Assembly (NCBI GenBank): GCA_017414845.1
Contig: JAFQJY010000135.1
Span: forward strand, 1 to 5,922
Length of the DNA stretch: 5,922 nucleotides
Reading direction: 5' to 3'
Source of the DNA: Alphaproteobacteria bacterium
GTDB taxonomy: Bacteria; Pseudomonadota; Alphaproteobacteria; RF32; UBA3637
The notes beneath the pieces were generated by a model, which saw nothing but the letters and a program-made list of their open reading frames with translations, was not told the origin of the DNA and ran no database searches. Both the position numbers and the translations under genes were made by a program. Positions 1 to 5,922 of this stretch are shown one piece after another. Each line of letters starts with the position of its first letter. The stretch's first letter is position 1.

Positions 1-323
1 GCATCTAAGAAAGCCTGTATATCTTGCGGAGGGATTCTGCGCAAGCATTGAGGATTCATATTAGCACCTGAGATTTCAAGAAGTTTATAGGCTTTATAAT
101 CCTTATGAATGATGGCATAACAAACATGCCCCATACCGTTTTCATCAACCCCGTCAAGATTGTATCCCTTATTTAATATCCGGTAAAAAGAGGACATATC
201 TTTCCTTTGAAGTGCCATACTGACAGCCTGAAATGCTGTTATACGTTGTGCATTTGCAGGTGCAGGAATACAGCCCAGACCGATTAAAAAACTGATGATA
301 ACGGATTTAAATAAAACTCTCAC
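1..323 (-). CDS. Exported ankyrin-like repeat protein, C-terminus cut by window edge
   Basis: About 107 codons are visible before the frame runs off the left edge. It starts with GTG at 323-321, preceded by a GAGGGA Shine-Dalgarno (330-335) six bases away. No in-frame ATG lies between this GTG and an upstream stop. The first ~25 residues form a type I signal peptide: Arg/Lys, a hydrophobic run (VIISFLIGLGC), then an ANA|QR cleavage site. The mature part (ALQRKDMSSFYRILNKGYN, DENGMGHVCYAII, YKLLEISGANMN) has the helix-turn-helix spacing and G-A/V-N ends of ankyrin repeats, with roughly two repeats visible. Ankyrin proteins bind other proteins, and an exported one would act in the periplasm or outside. 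The partner is unknown. The repeats are divergent, so the fold is an inference; the gene and its export signal are well supported. A TATAAA -10-like element lies upstream, but I found no convincing -35. Confidence 0.8.
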   Translation of the reverse strand, partial: MRVLFKSVIISFLIGLGCIPAPANAQRITAFQAVSMALQRKDMSSFYRILNKGYNLDGVDENGMGHVCYAIIHKDYKAYKLLEISGANMNPQCLRRIPPQDIQAFLD

Positions 324-427
324 GGTTGTTCCCTCGTTTTTTTTAGATACAAAAATGTCTTTATACTATATTTGTTTATGAGTAAATAAAGGGTTAATTC
401 TTGTCTTAAAAGATAATTAAAAATGAC

Positions 428-456
428 TTGTTTTTATGAATAAAAGTTTTTAAAAT
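428..456 (+). promoter_or_regulatory. Probable sigma-70 promoter of the P-loop ATPase gene
   Basis: A TTGTTT (428-433) and TAAAAT (451-456) pair is separated by exactly 17 bp. Transcription would begin near 463, giving a leader of about 15 nt that carries the Shine-Dalgarno at 466-472. The -35 is weak (three of six consensus bases) and the background is AT-rich, so this is moderate. It agrees with the start at 478, because the upstream ATG at 460 would fall at or before the transcription start. Confidence 0.5.
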
Positions 457-477
457 CAGATGAAGAAGGGGAAAATA

Positions 478-993
478 ATGTCAGAAGTAACGATACATTT
501 AATTTGTGGTTTTATGGGCTTTGGCAAAACGACTTATGCTAAAAAATTGTCTGCAAGGAACGGTGCTGTTCGTCTGACACCGGATGAGTGGATACATCGT
601 CTTTACGGTCCTAATCCCGATCATTTTGATGAAAAAATGAAAGCCGTAGATAGTTTGATTTGGTCTATGACGGAAGAGTTTGTTCGTTCAGGTCGTTCCG
701 TTATTTTAGATTATGGTTTTTGGACAAAAAAAGTACGGGAGGATGTAACGGAAAAAGCACTTTCTTTAACAAACAGGGTTATATGGCACAAATTGGAATG
801 TCCGATGGCAGTTGCTAAAACAAGGGTTTTATCCCGTTCAAAAGAAGATAAGGAAAGCCTTTTTATAGATGAAAATTGTTTTAATGAAAAAGTAGGACTA
901 TACGAGCCTGTTTCAGCAGATGAAACATATTTCAAACAAACAGGGGTTGACTTGTTTGTTTGTCATGATGCTTTTGTTCAATCGGATACTTAG
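478..993 (+). CDS. P-loop ATP-binding protein, AAA/zeta-toxin-type kinase fold
   Basis: This is a 171-aa predicted cytoplasmic P-loop protein. Residues 11-19 (GFMGFGKTT) are a Walker A loop directly after a beta strand (VTIHLIC). A DEW motif (36-38) follows where small kinases of this type bind substrate. A Walker B-like strand VILDYGFW ends at Asp78. Arg116 and Arg120 (TRVLSR) sit in the lid region expected to contact phosphates. The length and motif order match the small predicted kinases grouped as AAA_33 or zeta-toxin/chloramphenicol-phosphotransferase-like; the substrate cannot be read from sequence. I chose ATG 478 because AAGGGGA (466-472) lies six bases before it. The in-frame ATG at 460 has no ribosome site and would place that Shine-Dalgarno inside the gene. 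It stands alone on the plus strand, and its TAG stop overlaps the stop of the convergent gene. Confidence 0.85.
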   Translation: MSEVTIHLICGFMGFGKTTYAKKLSARNGAVRLTPDEWIHRLYGPNPDHFDEKMKAVDSLIWSMTEEFVRSGRSVILDYGFWTKKVREDVTEKALSLTNRVIWHKLECPMAVAKTRVLSRSKEDKESLFIDENCFNEKVGLYEPVSADETYFKQTGVDLFVCHDAFVQSDT

Positions 994-1793
994 CGACCGC
1001 CTGTTTTACGATACATTTGCATCAGATTTTGATGACCACACTGTTTATCCATCAGACGTTGTATCAAGGGACAAAGTTCTTTTTTCTTTTCGGGGTTCTC
1101 GGAAAAAAGAGTTGTTTCTTTGTAGGAACCGTCCTTTTGAAGTTCTACGAGAATGATTTCTGCAATCGGCAGTTCTTTTTGTCCTGTATATTTAAGAGCG
1201 TATGAATCTCCGCTTGAAACAGTGCGTTGCAGATGTTCATTATAGATTTTTCTGTATTCCGGAGATTGAACGTACAGTTCGTCGCTGAGTGCCTGAGAAA
1301 TACCGGTATGATCACTTCTGTCACCAAAATCGGCATCGGAATAAATAAAAGTTTTTTCCTTGTCCTCCCAGCGCATTTCATAGTCAAGCGCAATGGCTTT
1401 TATCTGTCGGCTGTCTTTTGTCGGATAAATTCGGGTAATCGTACCGGAACCGTCGTTGATACGAAAGTCAATATGAACGCGCTTATTGCATAGGGTTTTG
1501 GTTGCCGCATCCACAATTTCCCGTTTCATAGACGCATTACGTTCAAAGTCATGTTGCCATCCGTGTTCACGGGTAATGCTTTCCTGAGGTTGCCTGACAC
1601 GAATGATTAGGCTTTTTTCAAGATGATGAAAGTCGGCATAACGAAAAGTCTCTTCCTTTGTAGTAAAGAAATAACAGCCTTCTTCTTGCCCGCCGGCAGG
1701 ACGTTTGCCTACATCTGTTCGGATACCGTTCTTTAAAAATGAATCGAGTGATTCGTCAGTCTTTGTCATATGCCATACGTTGATATCAGCCAT
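990..1793 (-). CDS. Unrecognised protein with ADP-ribosyltransferase-like N-terminus
   Basis: A 267-aa soluble protein with no signal peptide or membrane segment. I do not recognise the whole protein. The N-terminus is VWHMT (His8), a helix ending LKNGI, then GGQEEGCYFFTT (34-45), FRYADF (50-55) and a strand LIIRV. That layout (His on the first strand, G-x-YF-TT, a helix with YA, then a strand) is typical of the ADP-ribosyltransferase/RNA 2'-phosphotransferase fold. The assignment is inference, and the third catalytic residue is not assigned. The C-terminal half is charged and resembles nothing I know. ATG 1793 is preferred over ATG 1826: a good promoter has its -10 at 1817-1822, which leaves 1826 upstream of the message, and AGAGGA (1797-1802) lies just before 1793. 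The gene is convergent with the P-loop gene and its TAA overlaps that gene's TAG. Confidence 0.75.
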   Translation of the reverse strand: MADINVWHMTKTDESLDSFLKNGIRTDVGKRPAGGQEEGCYFFTTKEETFRYADFHHLEKSLIIRVRQPQESITREHGWQHDFERNASMKREIVDAATKTLCNKRVHIDFRINDGSGTITRIYPTKDSRQIKAIALDYEMRWEDKEKTFIYSDADFGDRSDHTGISQALSDELYVQSPEYRKIYNEHLQRTVSSGDSYALKYTGQKELPIAEIILVELQKDGSYKETTLFSENPEKKKELCPLIQRLMDKQCGHQNLMQMYRKTGGR

Positions 1794-1816
1794 AGTTCCT
1801 CTCTTTTCTGAGAAAC

Positions 1817-1845
1817 AGTATACCAAAGTTTTTTCTTTTTTTCAA
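1817..1845 (-). promoter_or_regulatory. Sigma-70 promoter of the 267-aa gene
   Basis: On the minus strand, TTGAAA (1840-1845) is followed after exactly 17 bp by TATACT (1817-1822). Transcription would start near 1810, leaving a leader of about 17 nt before ATG 1793. The spacer begins with a long A-rich run like that of the lysozyme-gene promoter at 3142-3170. This promoter decides the start codon, since the longer alternative at 1826 would lie upstream of the -10 box. Confidence 0.75.
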
Positions 1846-1937
1846 GATGTAAAAAGTTTTCTGTTATGTCAAAATACATCATATTCTATTCAATAAAATG
1901 AGACGAATATAAATATTGATAAGTAATACTGCCACAA

Positions 1938-1977
1938 CAAAAAGATTAAATGCTTACTCTTTTTTTGGGGATAAGCA
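1938..1977 (-). terminator. Possible weak terminator, minus strand
   Basis: On the minus strand TGCTTA (1977-1972) pairs with TAAGCA (1956-1951), followed by a T-rich tail TTTAATCTTTTTG (1950-1938). The stem is only 6 bp, AT-rich and has a 15-base loop, so termination would be weak. It would serve as a second stop for transcripts leaving the tRNA region. Confidence 0.25.
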
Positions 1978-1981
1978 ATGA

Positions 1982-2025
1982 GACACGGCGAAGCAAGGGC
2001 AAAAGCCCGTAGGTGAGCCGATGTC
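1982..2025. repeat. Nested imperfect inverted repeat, possible RNA stem
   Basis: GACACGGC (1982-1989) pairs with GCCGATGTC (2017-2025) as 8 bp with one bulged A at 2021. Inside it GGGC (1997-2000) pairs with GCCC (2005-2008) around an AAAA loop. Two nested helices in 44 bases, GC-rich within an AT-rich gap, suggest a folded RNA or a mobile repeat unit. No promoter for it was found on either strand. Confidence 0.45.
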
Positions 2026-2102
2026 GGAATTGAAAAAACGAGAAATAAGATGCTGAGTTGTCGTTTGTATTTGATTGTTAGTCAGAATTGAAACCCGACG
2101 AG
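2023..2102. repeat. Pair of imperfect direct repeats
   Basis: The segments 2023-2042 and 2081-2102 both read GTC(G/A)GAATTGAAA, then a short variable part, then CGAG. Their starts are 58 bases apart. The shared 13-base core has one mismatch. Function is unknown; on the minus strand the second copy can fold as GTCGG/CTGAC around a 9-base loop. They may be a duplicated binding site or part of a larger repeat unit. Confidence 0.45.
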
Positions 2103-2108
2103 CGCCAT

Positions 2109-2138
2109 AAAAAAACCACCTCTTACAAGGTGGTTTTT
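2109..2138 (-). terminator. Rho-independent terminator of tRNA-Met
   Basis: On the minus strand AAAAACCACCT (2138-2128) pairs perfectly with AGGTGGTTTTT (2121-2111) around a 6-base loop, and the T run continues to 2109. It begins only 5 bases after the tRNA CCA end. The A-rich 5' side means it could also stop plus-strand transcripts, but nothing on that strand needs it. Confidence 0.85.
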
Positions 2139-2142
2139 GAAA

Positions 2143-2219
2143 TGGTAGCAAAGGAGGGATTTGAACCCCCGACACGCGGATTATGATTCCGCTGCTCTAA
2201 CCAACTGAGCTACTTTGCC
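2143..2219 (-). tRNA. tRNA-Met (CAT), elongator type
   Basis: A complete 77-nt cloverleaf with encoded CCA. The acceptor is GGCAAAG/CTTTGCT with a G1-U72 wobble and discriminator A. The D stem is GCTC/GAGC, the anticodon stem GCGGA/TCCGC, and the T stem GGGGG/CCCTC with loop TTCAAAT. The loop ATCATAA places anticodon CAT at 2185-2183. The anticodon stem lacks the three stacked G-C pairs of initiator tRNA and there is no 1-72 C-A mismatch, so it is not tRNA-fMet. From memory the sequence matches the alphaproteobacterial elongator Met tRNA better than the CAT-anticodon Ile2 tRNA. It has its own promoter and terminator and is therefore probably a single-gene transcript. Confidence 0.93.
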
Positions 2220-2222
2220 ATC

Positions 2223-2270
2223 AAAGTCGTACTACTTATACACAAAACTTTTTGGCTTGTCAACGACTTT
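2223..2270. repeat. Inverted repeat bracketing the tRNA promoter
   Basis: AAAGTCGT (2223-2230) and ACGACTTT (2263-2270) are a perfect 8-bp inverted repeat, separated by 32 bp that contain the tRNA -35 and -10 boxes. The right arm abuts the -35 and the left arm overlaps the expected transcription start. It could be a protein-binding pair. On the plus strand the right arm runs into a T tract, but the loop is long for a terminator. Confidence 0.4.
2235..2263 (-). promoter_or_regulatory. Sigma-70 promoter of tRNA-Met
   Basis: On the minus strand a consensus TTGACA (2258-2263) is followed after 17 bp by TATAAG (2235-2240). Transcription should start near 2228, giving a leader of about nine bases before the tRNA. 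The near-consensus boxes fit the strong expression expected of a tRNA gene. Confidence 0.85.
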
Positions 2271-2278
2271 TTTTTATT

Positions 2279-3109
2279 TTATCGTGTTTTTTTTGCTTGT
2301 TGCATTCGTGCAGTTGTTTTTATTTGTTGTTCCAGTTCATTTGCACCCTCAATAAACAGAACACGAATAAGGTCATTTCTTTTCTTTGAAACTTGTCCTC
2401 GTCTGGTTTCTAATGCGGCTTGATGATAACCTCTCGGATTGCCTTTTGCACCTGCTTGCAATCCGGCATAACATTTTTTCCAACGATTTTTTGTGAAATT
2501 ACCGGTGTTGTACTGAATATCCATAGAACCGACAACAATAACAAAAGGCACTTTTTCAACATCAATACCGGCAGAACGGAAATTGCGTTTCAAGGCATCA
2601 AATGTTTGCCCTAAATCTTTTCGGCAAAGTTGTTCTGCCGATTCTCTTGTTACAAAAAGATCAAATTTTCGGTAGGTGTCGGCTTTATAGTTATAAACAG
2701 GGCGTCCTCTACTGTCTACGCCTGTCTCCATTCCGGGTTTGGCATCAGCAATAGCTTGAAACCTTGCTTCTACCTCTTTCTGTGATAGGCGGCGACCTTC
2801 TGAGTCGGTGAAGACTAACTGCGCTCTTCTGTCAGGATCTTCAATGTTGGAACCATAACCACAAGTCAACTTTCCTGCTGTACACAGATAAACAAAACCT
2901 TTGTAATTTTCGTGTGCTTTGACAATCGTAAAAAGTCCGTCGCAAGCTCTGTCTTTTAAAGGACGATGCGTCTGACGACCGATAGATTTAACCGTATTGA
3001 CAATTTCTTGTGTTTCTTTTGTTTCTCCGGCACATCCTGTTAAAGACATCAAAGTAGCGGCGGCTACGGACAAAAAAGTCAAGCATTTAGGTTTTTTGAT
3101 AAAACTCAT
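2279..3109 (-). CDS. Lipoprotein with phage-type (GH24) lysozyme domain
   Basis: A 276-aa envelope protein predicted to cleave peptidoglycan as a T4-type lysozyme. The N-terminus is a lipoprotein signal: KKPK, a hydrophobic stretch, then lipobox LTGC with lipidated Cys26. The lysozyme core follows. HENYKG carries catalytic Glu67, YLCTAGKLTCGYG spans 74-86, and MDIQYNTGNF (196-205) matches the family's later D-x-x-[FY]-N-x-G motif. Cys76 sits exactly where T4 lysozyme has Asp20, and Thr82 matches Thr26, so the triad is Glu-8-Cys-5-Thr, a known variant among phage endolysins. Insertions near 90-145 make it longer than phage lysozymes. ATG 3109 is chosen because AAAGGA (3116-3121) lies six bases before it; ATG 3124 has no such site. 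No holin or phage genes adjoin it, so a cellular role is likelier than prophage lysis. Confidence 0.88.
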   Translation of the reverse strand: MSFIKKPKCLTFLSVAAATLMSLTGCAGETKETQEIVNTVKSIGRQTHRPLKDRACDGLFTIVKAHENYKGFVYLCTAGKLTCGYGSNIEDPDRRAQLVFTDSEGRRLSQKEVEARFQAIADAKPGMETGVDSRGRPVYNYKADTYRKFDLFVTRESAEQLCRKDLGQTFDALKRNFRSAGIDVEKVPFVIVVGSMDIQYNTGNFTKNRWKKCYAGLQAGAKGNPRGYHQAALETRRGQVSKKRNDLIRVLFIEGANELEQQIKTTARMQQAKKTR

Positions 3110-3141
3110 CTGTGTTCCTTTCATTATTTTAAATAAAGAGG

Positions 3142-3170
3142 ATTATAACATACTTTTTCTTTTTTTTCAA
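3142..3170 (-). promoter_or_regulatory. Sigma-70 promoter of the lysozyme lipoprotein gene
   Basis: On the minus strand TTGAAA (3165-3170) is followed after exactly 17 bp by a consensus TATAAT (3142-3147). The spacer opens with an A-rich run nearly identical to that at 1824-1839. Transcription would start near 3135, giving a leader of about 26 nt to ATG 3109. Confidence 0.8.
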
Positions 3171-3178
3171 GTTTTTTC

Positions 3179-3207
3179 TTGATTTTGACAAAAACGGGCA
3201 TTATGAT
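3179..3207 (+). promoter_or_regulatory. Probable promoter of the alpha/beta hydrolase gene
   Basis: TTGATT (3179-3184) and TATGAT (3202-3207) are 17 bp apart, giving a leader of about 14 nt that holds the Shine-Dalgarno AAGGAG (3217-3222). A better -35 match, TTGACA at 3185-3190, has no -10 at a normal distance. The -35 lies eight bases from the -35 of the divergent lysozyme promoter, so the two promoters are back to back. Confidence 0.55.
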
Positions 3208-3227
3208 GAGGAAGGAAAGGAGACAAT

Positions 3228-3923
3228 ATGAAAGAGATTTTTATCAATGGCCCTGCCGGTAAAATAGAAGGTCGTTATTTTGCCAGTCGCTTACCTGATG
3301 CCCCTTTGGCTGTTATCTTGCATCCTAATCCGCAACTTGACGGAAATATGAATAACAAGGTTGTTTATGCTATGTATCAGGCTTTCGCAAAACTTGGTTT
3401 TTCTGTTGTCAGGTTTAATTTAAGAGGCGTTGGAAAATCTCAAGGGACAGATGACGGAGATCCGAATAATGCTGTCAATGATGCACTCGCTGTTGTGGAC
3501 TGGCTTAAAAGCATTCATCCTGCATCTACGGAATGTTGGGTCGGTGGGTATTCTTTCGGTGCTTGGGTTGCCGCACAGGCAATGATGCGTCGTCCGGATA
3601 TCAATGGGTTCGCTTTTGTTTCTCCTCCGGCAGATGAGTGTGATTTTTCTTTCCTTGCTCCTTGTCCTGCCTCCGGTTTAATTGTTCAGGGAGGGGCAGA
3701 TATTTTAGTTTCGGAACCTTCGGTTGCAGTGTTAGCTGAACGTTTGGATGTGTACAGACGTGTTTGTGTGGACTATTTGTTGTTGCCGAATGCTGATCAT
3801 CTTTATACAAAACAACTGAAAGAGTTGTTTGACGGAATTGTTAAAAAAATACCGGAAGTTCGTTCTAAACGGGATCGTCTGCTTGTCAGAAAGAAAAGGA
3901 AAGTTGTTCCTGTCAGTGAATAA
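3228..3923 (+). CDS. Alpha/beta hydrolase, COG2945-like
   Basis: A 231-aa cytoplasmic serine hydrolase. After strand LAVILHPNPQ (27-36, oxyanion-hole region) come MNNKVVYAMY, FSVVRFNLRGVGKS and the nucleophile elbow GYSFG with Ser109 (107-111). The acid is probably Asp158 (GGADILV) and the base His191 (NADHLYT), completing a Ser-Asp-His triad in the usual order. The HPxPQ...G.MNNKV pattern is typical of the COG2945 group of small predicted esterases, which are common in Alphaproteobacteria; the physiological substrate is not known. AAGGAG (3217-3222) lies five bases before the ATG. The last ~20 residues are a basic tail (RSKRDRLLVRKKRK) that looks like an extension beyond the catalytic domain. 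Its end overlaps the convergent membrane-protein gene by 11 bp, with no terminator between them. Confidence 0.92.
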   Translation: MKEIFINGPAGKIEGRYFASRLPDAPLAVILHPNPQLDGNMNNKVVYAMYQAFAKLGFSVVRFNLRGVGKSQGTDDGDPNNAVNDALAVVDWLKSIHPASTECWVGGYSFGAWVAAQAMMRRPDINGFAFVSPPADECDFSFLAPCPASGLIVQGGADILVSEPSVAVLAERLDVYRRVCVDYLLLPNADHLYTKQLKELFDGIVKKIPEVRSKRDRLLVRKKRKVVPVSE

Positions 3924-4416
3924 TAGGTGTGTTTTCCGTTGTTTCGGTATCGGATATAACCTCTGTTTCAAGGGATGTTTCTGTTTGTAGGTCTGAAACA
4001 GGTATTTCCTGTTGCTGAACAATTTCCTGCTTTATTTTTAAAAGTTCATCTATATTTGCTCTGATTGTTGCAGAGACTTGTTCCGGCGAAAAAAAGAAAG
4101 ATGATAAGGACATAACAGTTTGAATAAGACAAGATATTGTAAACAGCTCTGCCAGAAAGCTCCAAAATTTCTTTCCTGTCTGTGTCGTATGTTTTTCAGC
4201 AGAACGCCAAATGCCGACAGTTTGCCAAACGGCAAGAAAAACAGCAATAACAGCATAATTGAAAAATAAACGAATAATAGTTTCTTTCTCGGAAAGAGAT
4301 GAAAGAATTATGAACGAAAAAGTAATTGTAGAAATAATATCAATTAAAATAAAATTTATCCAAAATGAACGCCATAACGGATATTCGCCTTTCCAATGTT
4401 TCTGTATAAAATTCAT
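3913..4416 (-). CDS. Small membrane protein, three predicted helices
   Basis: A 167-aa inner-membrane protein whose family I cannot name. Hydrophobic segments lie at about 18-40, 49-70 and 84-109. They are followed by a soluble tail of ~55 residues that is amphipathic (IRANIDELLKIKQEIVQQQ) and then rich in Glu and Thr. The N-terminus HWKGEYPLW and the WQTVGIWRSAEKH end of helix 2 look like conserved family motifs. It is the last gene of the minus-strand cluster: its ATG follows directly on the stop of the SUKH-like gene, and its Shine-Dalgarno AAAGGA (4423-4428) lies inside that gene, implying translational coupling. A role beside a nuclease/immunity pair is possible, for instance in protecting the membrane or in export, but this is only position-based inference. 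Its 3' end overlaps the hydrolase gene. Confidence 0.85.
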   Translation of the reverse strand: MNFIQKHWKGEYPLWRSFWINFILIDIISTITFSFIILSSLSEKETIIRLFFNYAVIAVFLAVWQTVGIWRSAEKHTTQTGKKFWSFLAELFTISCLIQTVMSLSSFFFSPEQVSATIRANIDELLKIKQEIVQQQEIPVSDLQTETSLETEVISDTETTENTPIIH

Positions 4417-4866
4417 TTAAGGTCCTTTCAATAATTCTTCTCCGTAAAAATAAAGAATATCATAAAAACGGGGAAGAGAAACTTCTGCCACTAAATCCAT
4501 CTTGTCAACAATCTGATAGTTTTTGTCCTTAGTATGATAGATAATCAAATCCTCGTTGTTTTCTCCCAGAATAATCATATCATGCGTGCGTTTTCTTTCT
4601 AAAAAAGCAACATTGACCTCTAAAAGGGAGGGAAATGTGTAATTTTTTTCTTCTCGTTGATGTGTTCGTATGCCATAAAATTTTAAACCGTTAAAGATAA
4701 CGGCATCAGTTACGGTTAAAAACTTGAAATAATCAGGCGCCGGCTGAGGTATTTTGTGTCGTGCTAAGGTCATCCGAAACGGAGAAACAACTTCTTCCGG
4801 TGCGGGGGCAAGGATAGTTGCTCCTTTATCCTGATATTCTTTAAGCAGGTTTTTTAAAACATCCAT
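4417..4866 (-). CDS. SMI1/KNR4 (SUKH)-like protein, probable immunity protein
   Basis: A 149-aa soluble protein with the layout of the SUKH (SMI1/KNR4, including YrhA-like) superfamily. An N-terminal helix is followed by PAPDYFKFL (42-50), FNGLKFYG (58-65), LLEVN (81-85), a strand pair MIILGENNEDLIIYH (97-111), then IVDKMDLV and a final SLPRFYDILYFY helix (130-141). Many bacterial SUKH proteins neutralise nuclease toxins encoded just upstream, and here the gene starts one base after the stop of an HNH-like nuclease gene. The Shine-Dalgarno GGGGGGA (4874-4880) lies within the nuclease gene's last codons, so the two should be translated together. The fold assignment rests on motif pattern alone; YrhA-like versus other SUKH groups is undecided. 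Confidence 0.8.
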   Translation of the reverse strand: MDVLKNLLKEYQDKGATILAPAPEEVVSPFRMTLARHKIPQPAPDYFKFLTVTDAVIFNGLKFYGIRTHQREEKNYTFPSLLEVNVAFLERKRTHDMIILGENNEDLIIYHTKDKNYQIVDKMDLVAEVSLPRFYDILYFYGEELLKGP

Positions 4867-4867
4867 A

Positions 4868-5473
4868 TCAACGTCCCCCCATCATGGTTCGCCGTTGCAG
4901 ACTTTTAAGTGATTCGGCAGAAAAACCGGCTTGTACACTACGGTCCTGTTTGTTCTTTCCACCACTGCCGTTAAAGGTTGTCAAAGGGATATAAACACGA
5001 CCGATAGGAACGGGAATATAGAGTTTTCTCGGACGAATATTGAGAGGCATTCCTTCCATTTGCATATCCATAAACTTATGAATATCCTCATGATAAGGGA
5101 ATGTTTGCATCAAAACAAGGTTAGAAAAGTCAACTTCTCCGGTATAATCAAAAGGAATTTTGACATGGATATTAAAATTTTCAGGTAGAATGCCCTTTTT
5201 AAAATAGAAGATACTCTCTTCATCTAATCCGGCGTTTCTAAGGTCGTTTAATGAGTTATAGGCAACATAGCGAATAAAATCACGTTTGACACGGGCAAAC
5301 TGTTTTTTCTTAGCGATTCTTTCCCATGGAGAAAGAGGATATGCCGTTGCTTCTACCAAATCCATCCCCGGAAAATTCATCTGCTGAAATGTCATTTCCC
5401 AAAAAGTCAGGTCATTGATCATTTCATCAGTAACAAGAGGTATTTCTCCGGTTATGTTTTGTTCCTCAATCAT
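4868..5473 (-). CDS. HNH-superfamily nuclease-like protein, probable polymorphic toxin tip
   Basis: A 201-aa protein without signal peptide or membrane segment. Residues 77-139 follow the pattern of toxin-type HNH/EndoVII nucleases: helix LRNAGLDEESIFYFKKGILP, then NIHVKIPFDYTGEVDF, SNLVLMQ, and PYHEDIH. His103, Asn118 and His128 take the usual metal and catalytic positions. The HH of the family's 'HHKxPL' reads His103-Val104, so activity may be altered or lost. It overlaps the upstream gene by ATGA (5470-5473). The frame cannot extend upstream, because TGA at 5477-5479 is in frame. A SUKH-like gene follows after one base, which supports a nuclease and immunity pair. The flanking ~75 N-terminal and ~60 C-terminal residues (RPRKLYIPVPIGRVYIPL) are unassigned. 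The Shine-Dalgarno is weak (GGAG 11 bases away), so expression probably depends on coupling. Confidence 0.8.
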   Translation of the reverse strand: MIEEQNITGEIPLVTDEMINDLTFWEMTFQQMNFPGMDLVEATAYPLSPWERIAKKKQFARVKRDFIRYVAYNSLNDLRNAGLDEESIFYFKKGILPENFNIHVKIPFDYTGEVDFSNLVLMQTFPYHEDIHKFMDMQMEGMPLNIRPRKLYIPVPIGRVYIPLTTFNGSGGKNKQDRSVQAGFSAESLKSLQRRTMMGGR

Positions 5474-5922
5474 GCTTCATCAAGCTCCGCAATTTCTTCC
5501 TGTAAAGAAGATGCCAGTGCATCCAAACTCTGAGTTTCACGTTGTGCCACAATCCATTTAGGAACAAAAGGAGCAGACGGAAGAGAACATTTACGTTTCA
5601 TTCCTTTATCTAAGTAATAACGGGGCGCATCTGCCAAAATCGGACGGTTTAGGAAACCTTGCATCAAAACATACTGTTTCATGGAATCCAAACTCATCAT
5701 TTCAGAAGCCCCGACAACATTAGAACTTTGAAGCGATTTGGAAACATTTGAGGACATTTTCATATTGAACCCCATAAGAGCCTCATTAGCGCTGACGCTT
5801 CGAGTTTGAATTGTTTTTGAACCAATCATTTTAGAGAAACGTTCGGCTGTTTTTTCATTGTTCTGTGCTAAAACAACCTTAGCAGCAGTTGTCGTAATGA
5901 TTGTTTCTAAGTCGTCAGCACC
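5470..5922 (-). CDS. C-terminal part of unrecognised protein, first gene seen of the cluster
   Basis: The frame is open from the window edge to TGA 5472-5470, so 150 residues are visible and the true start lies beyond 5922. The first in-frame ATG (5829) has no Shine-Dalgarno and is preceded by 31 open, protein-like codons (ADDLETIITTTAAKVVLAQ), so it is very probably internal. The visible part is helical and low in complexity: a Ser/Asn/Met-rich middle (NMKMSSNVSKSLQSSNVVG), a more ordered ADAPRYYLDKGMKRK segment, and an acidic C-terminal helix (SLDALASSLQEEIAELDEA). I recognise no domain. The 4-bp ATGA overlap with the nuclease gene suggests that it is a functional partner, perhaps a carrier or structural protein for it, but this is inference. 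Confidence 0.75.
   Translation of the reverse strand, partial: GADDLETIITTTAAKVVLAQNNEKTAERFSKMIGSKTIQTRSVSANEALMGFNMKMSSNVSKSLQSSNVVGASEMMSLDSMKQYVLMQGFLNRPILADAPRYYLDKGMKRKCSLPSAPFVPKWIVAQRETQSLDALASSLQEEIAELDEA

Follow-up and report, generated by a model that had tools for sequence, protein, structure and literature searches.

We report that a cluster of four minus-strand genes in a 5,922-nt stretch of DNA from an Alphaproteobacteria bacterium (GCA_017414845.1, contig JAFQJY010000135.1, positions 1–5,922 of the forward strand; hereafter the window) probably makes up the 3' portion of an operon encoding a type IV coupling complex. On the strength of sequence comparison, we think that this complex would serve a chromosomal, protein-exporting VirB-type system of small-genome Alphaproteobacteria. 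The operon is built around a quartet of genes that encode a membrane protein carrying a nuclease-like domain, a type IV coupling protein (T4CP), an HNH-type protein that seems to have lost its catalytic residue (pseudo-HNH) and a SUKH-superfamily protein. The part of the operon that lies beyond the window, namely the upstream genes and the N-terminal part of the coupling protein, was read from the loci of relatives.

In the window, the four open reading frames (ORFs) lie at 5470–5922 (open at the window end), 4868–5473, 4417–4866 and 3913–4416. Their junctions are an ATGA overlap of 4 bases (5470/5473), a gap of 1 base (4868/4866) and a gap of 0 bases (4417/4416), and purine-rich sites, judged by eye, precede every internal start from inside the preceding gene. 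The initial annotation of this DNA had described four minus-strand genes with junctions of −4, +1 and 0 bases and embedded ribosome sites, and the ORF list together with the purine-rich sites confirms that description. It had also treated the first gene as an unknown protein that forms the separate delivery part of a toxin module. The gene is indeed a separate, upstream one, but by profile match its product is the C-terminus (150 amino acids, aa) of a VirD4/TraG-family type IV coupling protein, T4CP-1, whose gene runs past the window. More specifically, the fragment encoded at 5470–5922 matches PF02534 with 48.8 bits against a Pfam cut-off of 20.1 (E = 6.4e-13), as well as PF12696 and PF10412, and is 62–70% identical to the coupling-protein C-terminus in all 22 loci of a first contig scan for relatives. 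Full-length relatives (L002, L004 and L005) match the T4CP family in Pfam with 171–183 bits. The Walker motifs, scored in relatives only since the window fragment does not cover that part of the gene, read PPGTGKT (47/52) or PPGAGKT (5/52) for Walker A and FVLDEF (51/52) or FALDEF (1/52) for Walker B in near-full-length copies. The median length of the coupling protein in relatives is 729 aa (716–809). A search of PDB sequences gave no match for the window fragment and weak matches only for the full protein (best E = 0.83).

The 22 loci of the first scan all come from metagenome-assembled genomes of Alphaproteobacteria, 9 of them with a ruminant gut site in the title, and in every one an HNH-like gene follows the T4CP gene and precedes the SUKH gene. 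Within the order, a strong HNH-like match was obtained in 42 of 43 genomes, the remaining genome (G025) having weak paralogue-like matches only; nearly all members carry one strong match, and G045 carries two. Searching the class with the upstream membrane protein returned 22 matching genomes out of 385, of which 17 are not among the 43 of the order, while the same search in a draw from the phylum returned 1 of 398, the starting genome itself. We compared 58 loci, 42 from the order and 16 others, leaving out L105–L108, which have no T4CP neighbour. In 51 of these loci the quartet genes share a strand and stand in the same order, a count that includes three with short or broken copies: the upstream ORF of L014 is short (196 aa) and preceded by a second ORF of 117 aa, that of L020 is an 83-aa one at the contig start, and the HNH gene of L021 is split into two ORFs, read as separate pieces. 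Six loci are cut by contig ends (L001, L016, L071, L077, L080 and L101), and L096 retains the membrane protein and T4CP without HNH and SUKH, its whole genome having no HNH match. Median intergenic gaps in the quartet are 10, 4 and 1.5 bases; large negative gaps at L079 and L082 stem from taking the longest ORF start, and L018 and L078 have an extra ORF between the membrane protein and the T4CP. Because T4CP–HNH and HNH–SUKH recur as one-strand neighbours, the former at 55 loci (median gap 4 bases) and the latter at 56 (1.5 bases), a chance arrangement is excluded. The recurrence of gene order that the initial annotation had anticipated therefore holds for T4CP–HNH–SUKH, not for its small membrane gene. 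Distance matrices of the four proteins, built from the 48 of 58 loci in which all four are near full length, correlate within the order (r 0.74–0.92, with 0.92 for T4CP–HNH; 0 of 999 permutations as high), which argues against cassette swapping. Judging from these alignments and neighbourhoods, the quartet is co-located in a fixed order and co-inherited.

The membrane protein just upstream of the T4CP, outside the window, is mostly 316–440 aa long in relatives. Fold comparison of its predicted structure points to a PD-(D/E)XK-like, alpha/beta domain. The Pfam family NERD matched one of three members at E = 0.0086, below the cut-off, a PDB sequence search gave no match, and a conserved (D/E)xK active site was not found by eye in 26 aligned sequences. 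This protein, with its predicted PD-(D/E)XK-like domain, is the constant fourth member of the cluster. That position had originally been given to the three-helix membrane protein of the window (3913–4416, minus strand; 167 aa, about three hydrophobic segments), an assignment that did not hold up: its relatives follow SUKH only in L067–L072, L089 and L090, which makes 8 of the 58 loci in addition to the window. Its gene is an optional fifth one, restricted to some clades; the protein has 18 homologues in the protein database and weak single matches only in Pfam. Separately, L105–L108 hold paralogues of the upstream protein on their own, with no adjoining coupling protein; those of L107 and L108 sit by eye among ATP-synthase-like genes.

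The 201-aa product of 4868–5473 (minus strand) appears, from its aligned residues, to be a pseudo-enzyme that has lost the cutting residue. Its HNH-type core covers residues 97–138 (5060–5185, minus strand), where alignment of the T4CP-linked copies places H103, V104, N118, H128 and H132. In colicin E9 the second H of the HH pair is the general base. No T4CP-linked copy with a residue at that position has a histidine there (0/56; L 43, I 8, V 3, M 1, Q 1), one further linked row, from a broken gene, being gapped at the position and outside the 56; the window copy has V. The predicted metal ligands are kept, the first H and both H of HxxxH in 55 of 56 linked copies and N in all 56. The linked copy of L104 lacks the metal ligands too, yet the gene is retained in place. 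Paralogues in the same genomes that are not linked to a T4CP have HH in 25 of 26 rows so classed, the 26th (L077, with L at the position) really being a linked copy at a contig end.

We assign the protein to the HNH type because of the motif, the unlinked paralogues and, weakly, the predicted fold. The HNH-protein profile picks up unlinked paralogues at E values of 8e-13 to 5e-4, and all 7 of those scanned match Pfam HNH at E ≤ 1, 2 of them passing a cut-off. Against PDB sequences the profile aligned weakly to the pyocin AP41 DNase motif (E = 1.4), and colicin E9 His103Ala mutants and teneurin chains are among the matches listed in the structure comparison. The HH, H, H pattern is tabulated for ColE7-type HNH toxins in the available part of PMC3482391. 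The HNH nuclease of the initial annotation stands as an HNH-type protein and probably falls as an active nuclease. The HNH profile match it had proposed as a check did not appear: none of 22 members matches a Pfam HNH family at E ≤ 1, nor do 3 distant members. Beyond the core, the conserved tail motif GSGGKNKQD (residues 169–177; 4943–4969, minus strand), a stretch predicted with low confidence and probably disordered, is a candidate docking motif. It is invariant in the first 22 aligned sequences though predicted to be disordered (predicted local distance difference test, pLDDT, below 50 for residues 166–184). Its sequence varies among more distant loci, some of which lack it; it is absent or different in L081, L083–L086, L092, L093 and L104. 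Of the unlinked HNH proteins with intact HH at L047–L066, some adjoin recG- or thrS-like genes by eye, and L055–L057 hold tandem pairs.

The product of 4417–4866 (minus strand, 149 aa) is SUKH-like by profile comparison, as the initial annotation had it. It matches NF038335 (NCBIfam) with 71.6 bits against a cut-off of 55, the L005 copy also exceeds that cut-off, and all 23 members of the family match at E ≤ 0.1. We take NF038335, the YrhA family, to belong to the SUKH superfamily. At E ≤ 1, PF09346 was found in 20 and PF14568 in 15 of the 23 members (best 4.1e-4); the window copy itself has no Pfam match, and the SUKH profile found no match among PDB sequences.

The genomes that host the quartet carry type IV secretion genes. 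VirB4 is present in 21 of 22 genomes of the order and in 16 of 17 host genomes outside it, VirB10 in 31 of 39 host genomes and VirB9 in 34 of 39. Among the 385 class genomes, apparently the same draw for both class searches, VirB4 occurs in 21 of 22 genomes with the upstream membrane protein versus 61 of 363 without it (Fisher p = 1.5e-14), in a test that ignores shared ancestry. At L114, VirB9-, VirB10- (2282 aa) and VirB11-type genes stand just upstream of the quartet and on its strand, separated from it by a ribbon-helix-helix (RHH)-like gene (judged by eye) and a J-domain-like gene on the opposite strand. VirB9 and VirB10 are close to the quartet in this one genome (G003) and about 40 kb away on the same contig in G064, and VirB4 shares the contig of the quartet in G011, G017 and G064. 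The relaxase family PF03432, the sole relaxase family searched, was found in none of the 22 genomes of the order.

Several points weigh against a coupling complex of a protein-exporting VirB system, the disregard of ancestry in the Fisher test among them. The operon is usually not seen adjoining virB genes, and PF03432 does occur outside the order, in 7 of 17 genomes. The SUKH and upstream membrane proteins diverge fast (mean identity 0.34 and 0.33). We considered the distance correlation as evidence of contact between the proteins and rejected it, as shared descent alone yields such correlation. In G309 the membrane protein and T4CP are retained, but the entire genome yields no HNH match, so the HNH gene can be lost. 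In addition, a second T4CP locus was seen in 20 of 22 genomes (G014 and G020 being the exceptions), and we therefore only infer that T4CP-1 pairs with the VirB channel.

In the mechanism that we propose, a T4CP hexamer would be the ATP-driven motor and the upstream membrane protein would anchor the complex in the inner membrane. The pseudo-HNH and SUKH proteins may be cytoplasmic adaptors on the T4CP that recruit effectors or hand them over, like DotM, DotN and IcmSW on DotL. The HNH fold would then be a metal-stabilised binding scaffold instead of an enzyme, the flexible conserved tail of the pseudo-HNH protein and its SUKH partner would offer candidate docking surfaces, and the small membrane protein would be an optional lineage-specific addition. 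We infer these roles of the individual subunits.

To our knowledge, recognition of protein cargo by coupling proteins has been worked out in most detail for Legionella. There, according to the available parts of PMC7280309, PMC5802825 and PMC7251119, DotL, DotM and DotN form with adaptors a cargo-recruiting platform. What would be common to this Dot/Icm coupling complex (with IcmSW, LvgA, DotY and DotZ) and the one proposed here is a VirD4-family ATPase, a partner of about 380 aa in the membrane, and adaptor subunits in the cytoplasm. The two differ in several respects. The same excerpts describe the cytoplasmic domain of DotM as all-helical and without known homologues, whereas the upstream protein here is predicted to be PD-(D/E)XK-like; the C-terminal extension of DotL has about 200 residues, whereas the three coupling proteins that we scanned end 76–78 residues past the TraG-D_C domain; and the hosts of the quartet carry VirB9/VirB10-type genes. 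Searches with Pfam, NCBIfam (where the presence of DotM or DotN models is unchecked), PDB sequence profiles and folds gave no homology to DotM or DotN; DotN is not among the listed PDB fold matches, which does not exclude a likeness to it, and DotN may itself be HNH-like. By the tests made, the quartet falls outside the Dot/Icm family and would be analogous to it, built from other folds.

With standard VirD4/TraG coupling proteins, the T4CP shares a family match above the cut-off and, in relatives, intact Walker A and B motifs; an HNH–SUKH pair is not known to us from any standard VirD4 system. Judged from titles and the starts of abstracts, a T4CP with SUKH or HNH partners is not described in the literature matches listed. 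A 2025 review (PMC12857230) proposes, in its available part, D4Aux as a label for proteins whose joint action with T4CPs has been demonstrated; the pseudo-HNH, SUKH and upstream proteins would be candidates for it.

The initial annotation had read the cluster as a polymorphic-toxin module, in which an HNH nuclease toxin would be exported via the T4CP and its secretion system and neutralised by the SUKH protein. HNH-type and SUKH genes do adjoin, the T4CP would supply a delivery route, and ColE7-type HNH toxins are listed with Imm-SUKH partners in the part of PMC3482391 available. The proteins here resemble ColE7/E9-type toxins in an HNH core with first H, N and HxxxH and in the SUKH neighbour; they differ in that the linked copies lack the general-base histidine and in that the locus is conserved instead of a variable cassette. 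Because the general base is missing in all 56 readable T4CP-linked copies, a nuclease toxin role is very unlikely. The locus is moreover near-universal in the order (42 of 43 genomes), with the same HNH and SUKH families throughout, and is co-inherited with the T4CP. No locus among those scanned has more than one SUKH match, and none of the 20 loci around the unlinked paralogues L047–L066 has any. Given the missing general base, the near-universal presence and the co-inheritance, we rejected the polymorphic toxin, and hold the whole module to be highly improbable.

We consider two other explanations, each of them unlikely. C-terminal signals are common in type IV cargo, and the pseudo-HNH protein, whose gene adjoins that of the T4CP and whose conserved flexible C-terminus often ends in R, might be a DNA- or protein-binding effector with SUKH as its chaperone. 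A cargo protein of this kind fits poorly with the single strong match that nearly every genome has, with conservation alongside the T4CP (r 0.92 within the order) and with the loss or change of the tail in the eight distant loci named above. T4CPs of the VirD4/TraG family move DNA in conjugation, and the operon might accordingly be a DNA-handling module for conjugation or DNA uptake or release, whose two proteins of nuclease fold would bind DNA and leave it uncut. Nuclease-type folds are predicted for both partners and a relaxase family is present in 7 of the 17 genomes outside the order, but the absence of PF03432 from the 22 order genomes, other relaxase families not having been searched, and the position of the quartet loci among housekeeping-like genes with no evident mobile element (by eye) make such a module doubtful.

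Returning to the coupling complex, we tentatively suggest, as a possibility we do not favour strongly, that a nuclease toxin–immunity pair was domesticated into it, the HNH partner losing its general base but keeping its metal site, and both partners becoming fixed adaptors on the T4CP beside a second dead nuclease fold in the membrane anchor. Animals offer a precedent for non-catalytic retention in the GHH domain of teneurin, an HNH-type toxin domain that they reuse in inactive form (PMC3482391, available part), although teneurin is a eukaryotic cell-surface protein in an unrelated context. If this domestication scenario holds, the operon would stand for a type IV coupling complex of a new class, assembled from dead nucleases and a fold of the immunity type. 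A second coupling complex with different folds, group-wide in small-genome Alphaproteobacteria (several being of animal-gut origin), would offer a comparison case to Legionella. It would also indicate that animal microbiomes harbour a secretion system not yet characterised, and would be a case of toxin and immunity folds being reused in secretion. An HNH–SUKH neighbourhood on its own is no evidence of a toxin.

Several minor observations concern the secretion genes and neighbours. The VirB10-type domain lies within very long open frames (1,280–2,838 aa) in 27 of 31 matching genomes (G006, G017, G064 and others); a long frame of this type is also present at L114:8139–14987, and the corresponding region of L117 seems by eye to be split into two ORFs. 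A pentapeptide-repeat protein precedes the second coupling-protein locus at L034:7291–10567 and L039:522–4424. Just upstream of the quartet, an RHH-like protein (about 92–104 aa, by eye) is encoded in L003, L010, L011, L067, L073, L082, L084–L086 and L089, accompanied in most such loci by a divergent J-domain-like protein, for which a DnaJ match was tested on the L002 copy alone. L001, L002, L015, L033, L054, L085 and L114 encode, sometimes just downstream of the quartet, proteins whose N-terminal motif is pilin-like and resembles SGRSMVEMLG (by eye). In the rest of the window, the minus strand encodes a 278-aa protein at 990–1826 with weak Pfam matches only (E 0.08 and above) and none in NCBIfam, a 281-aa protein at 2279–3124 that is lipoprotein-like by eye and has a weak phage-lysozyme match (E = 0.0068, below the cut-off), and, from a tRNA search, a tRNA-Met gene with anticodon CAT at 2143–2219.

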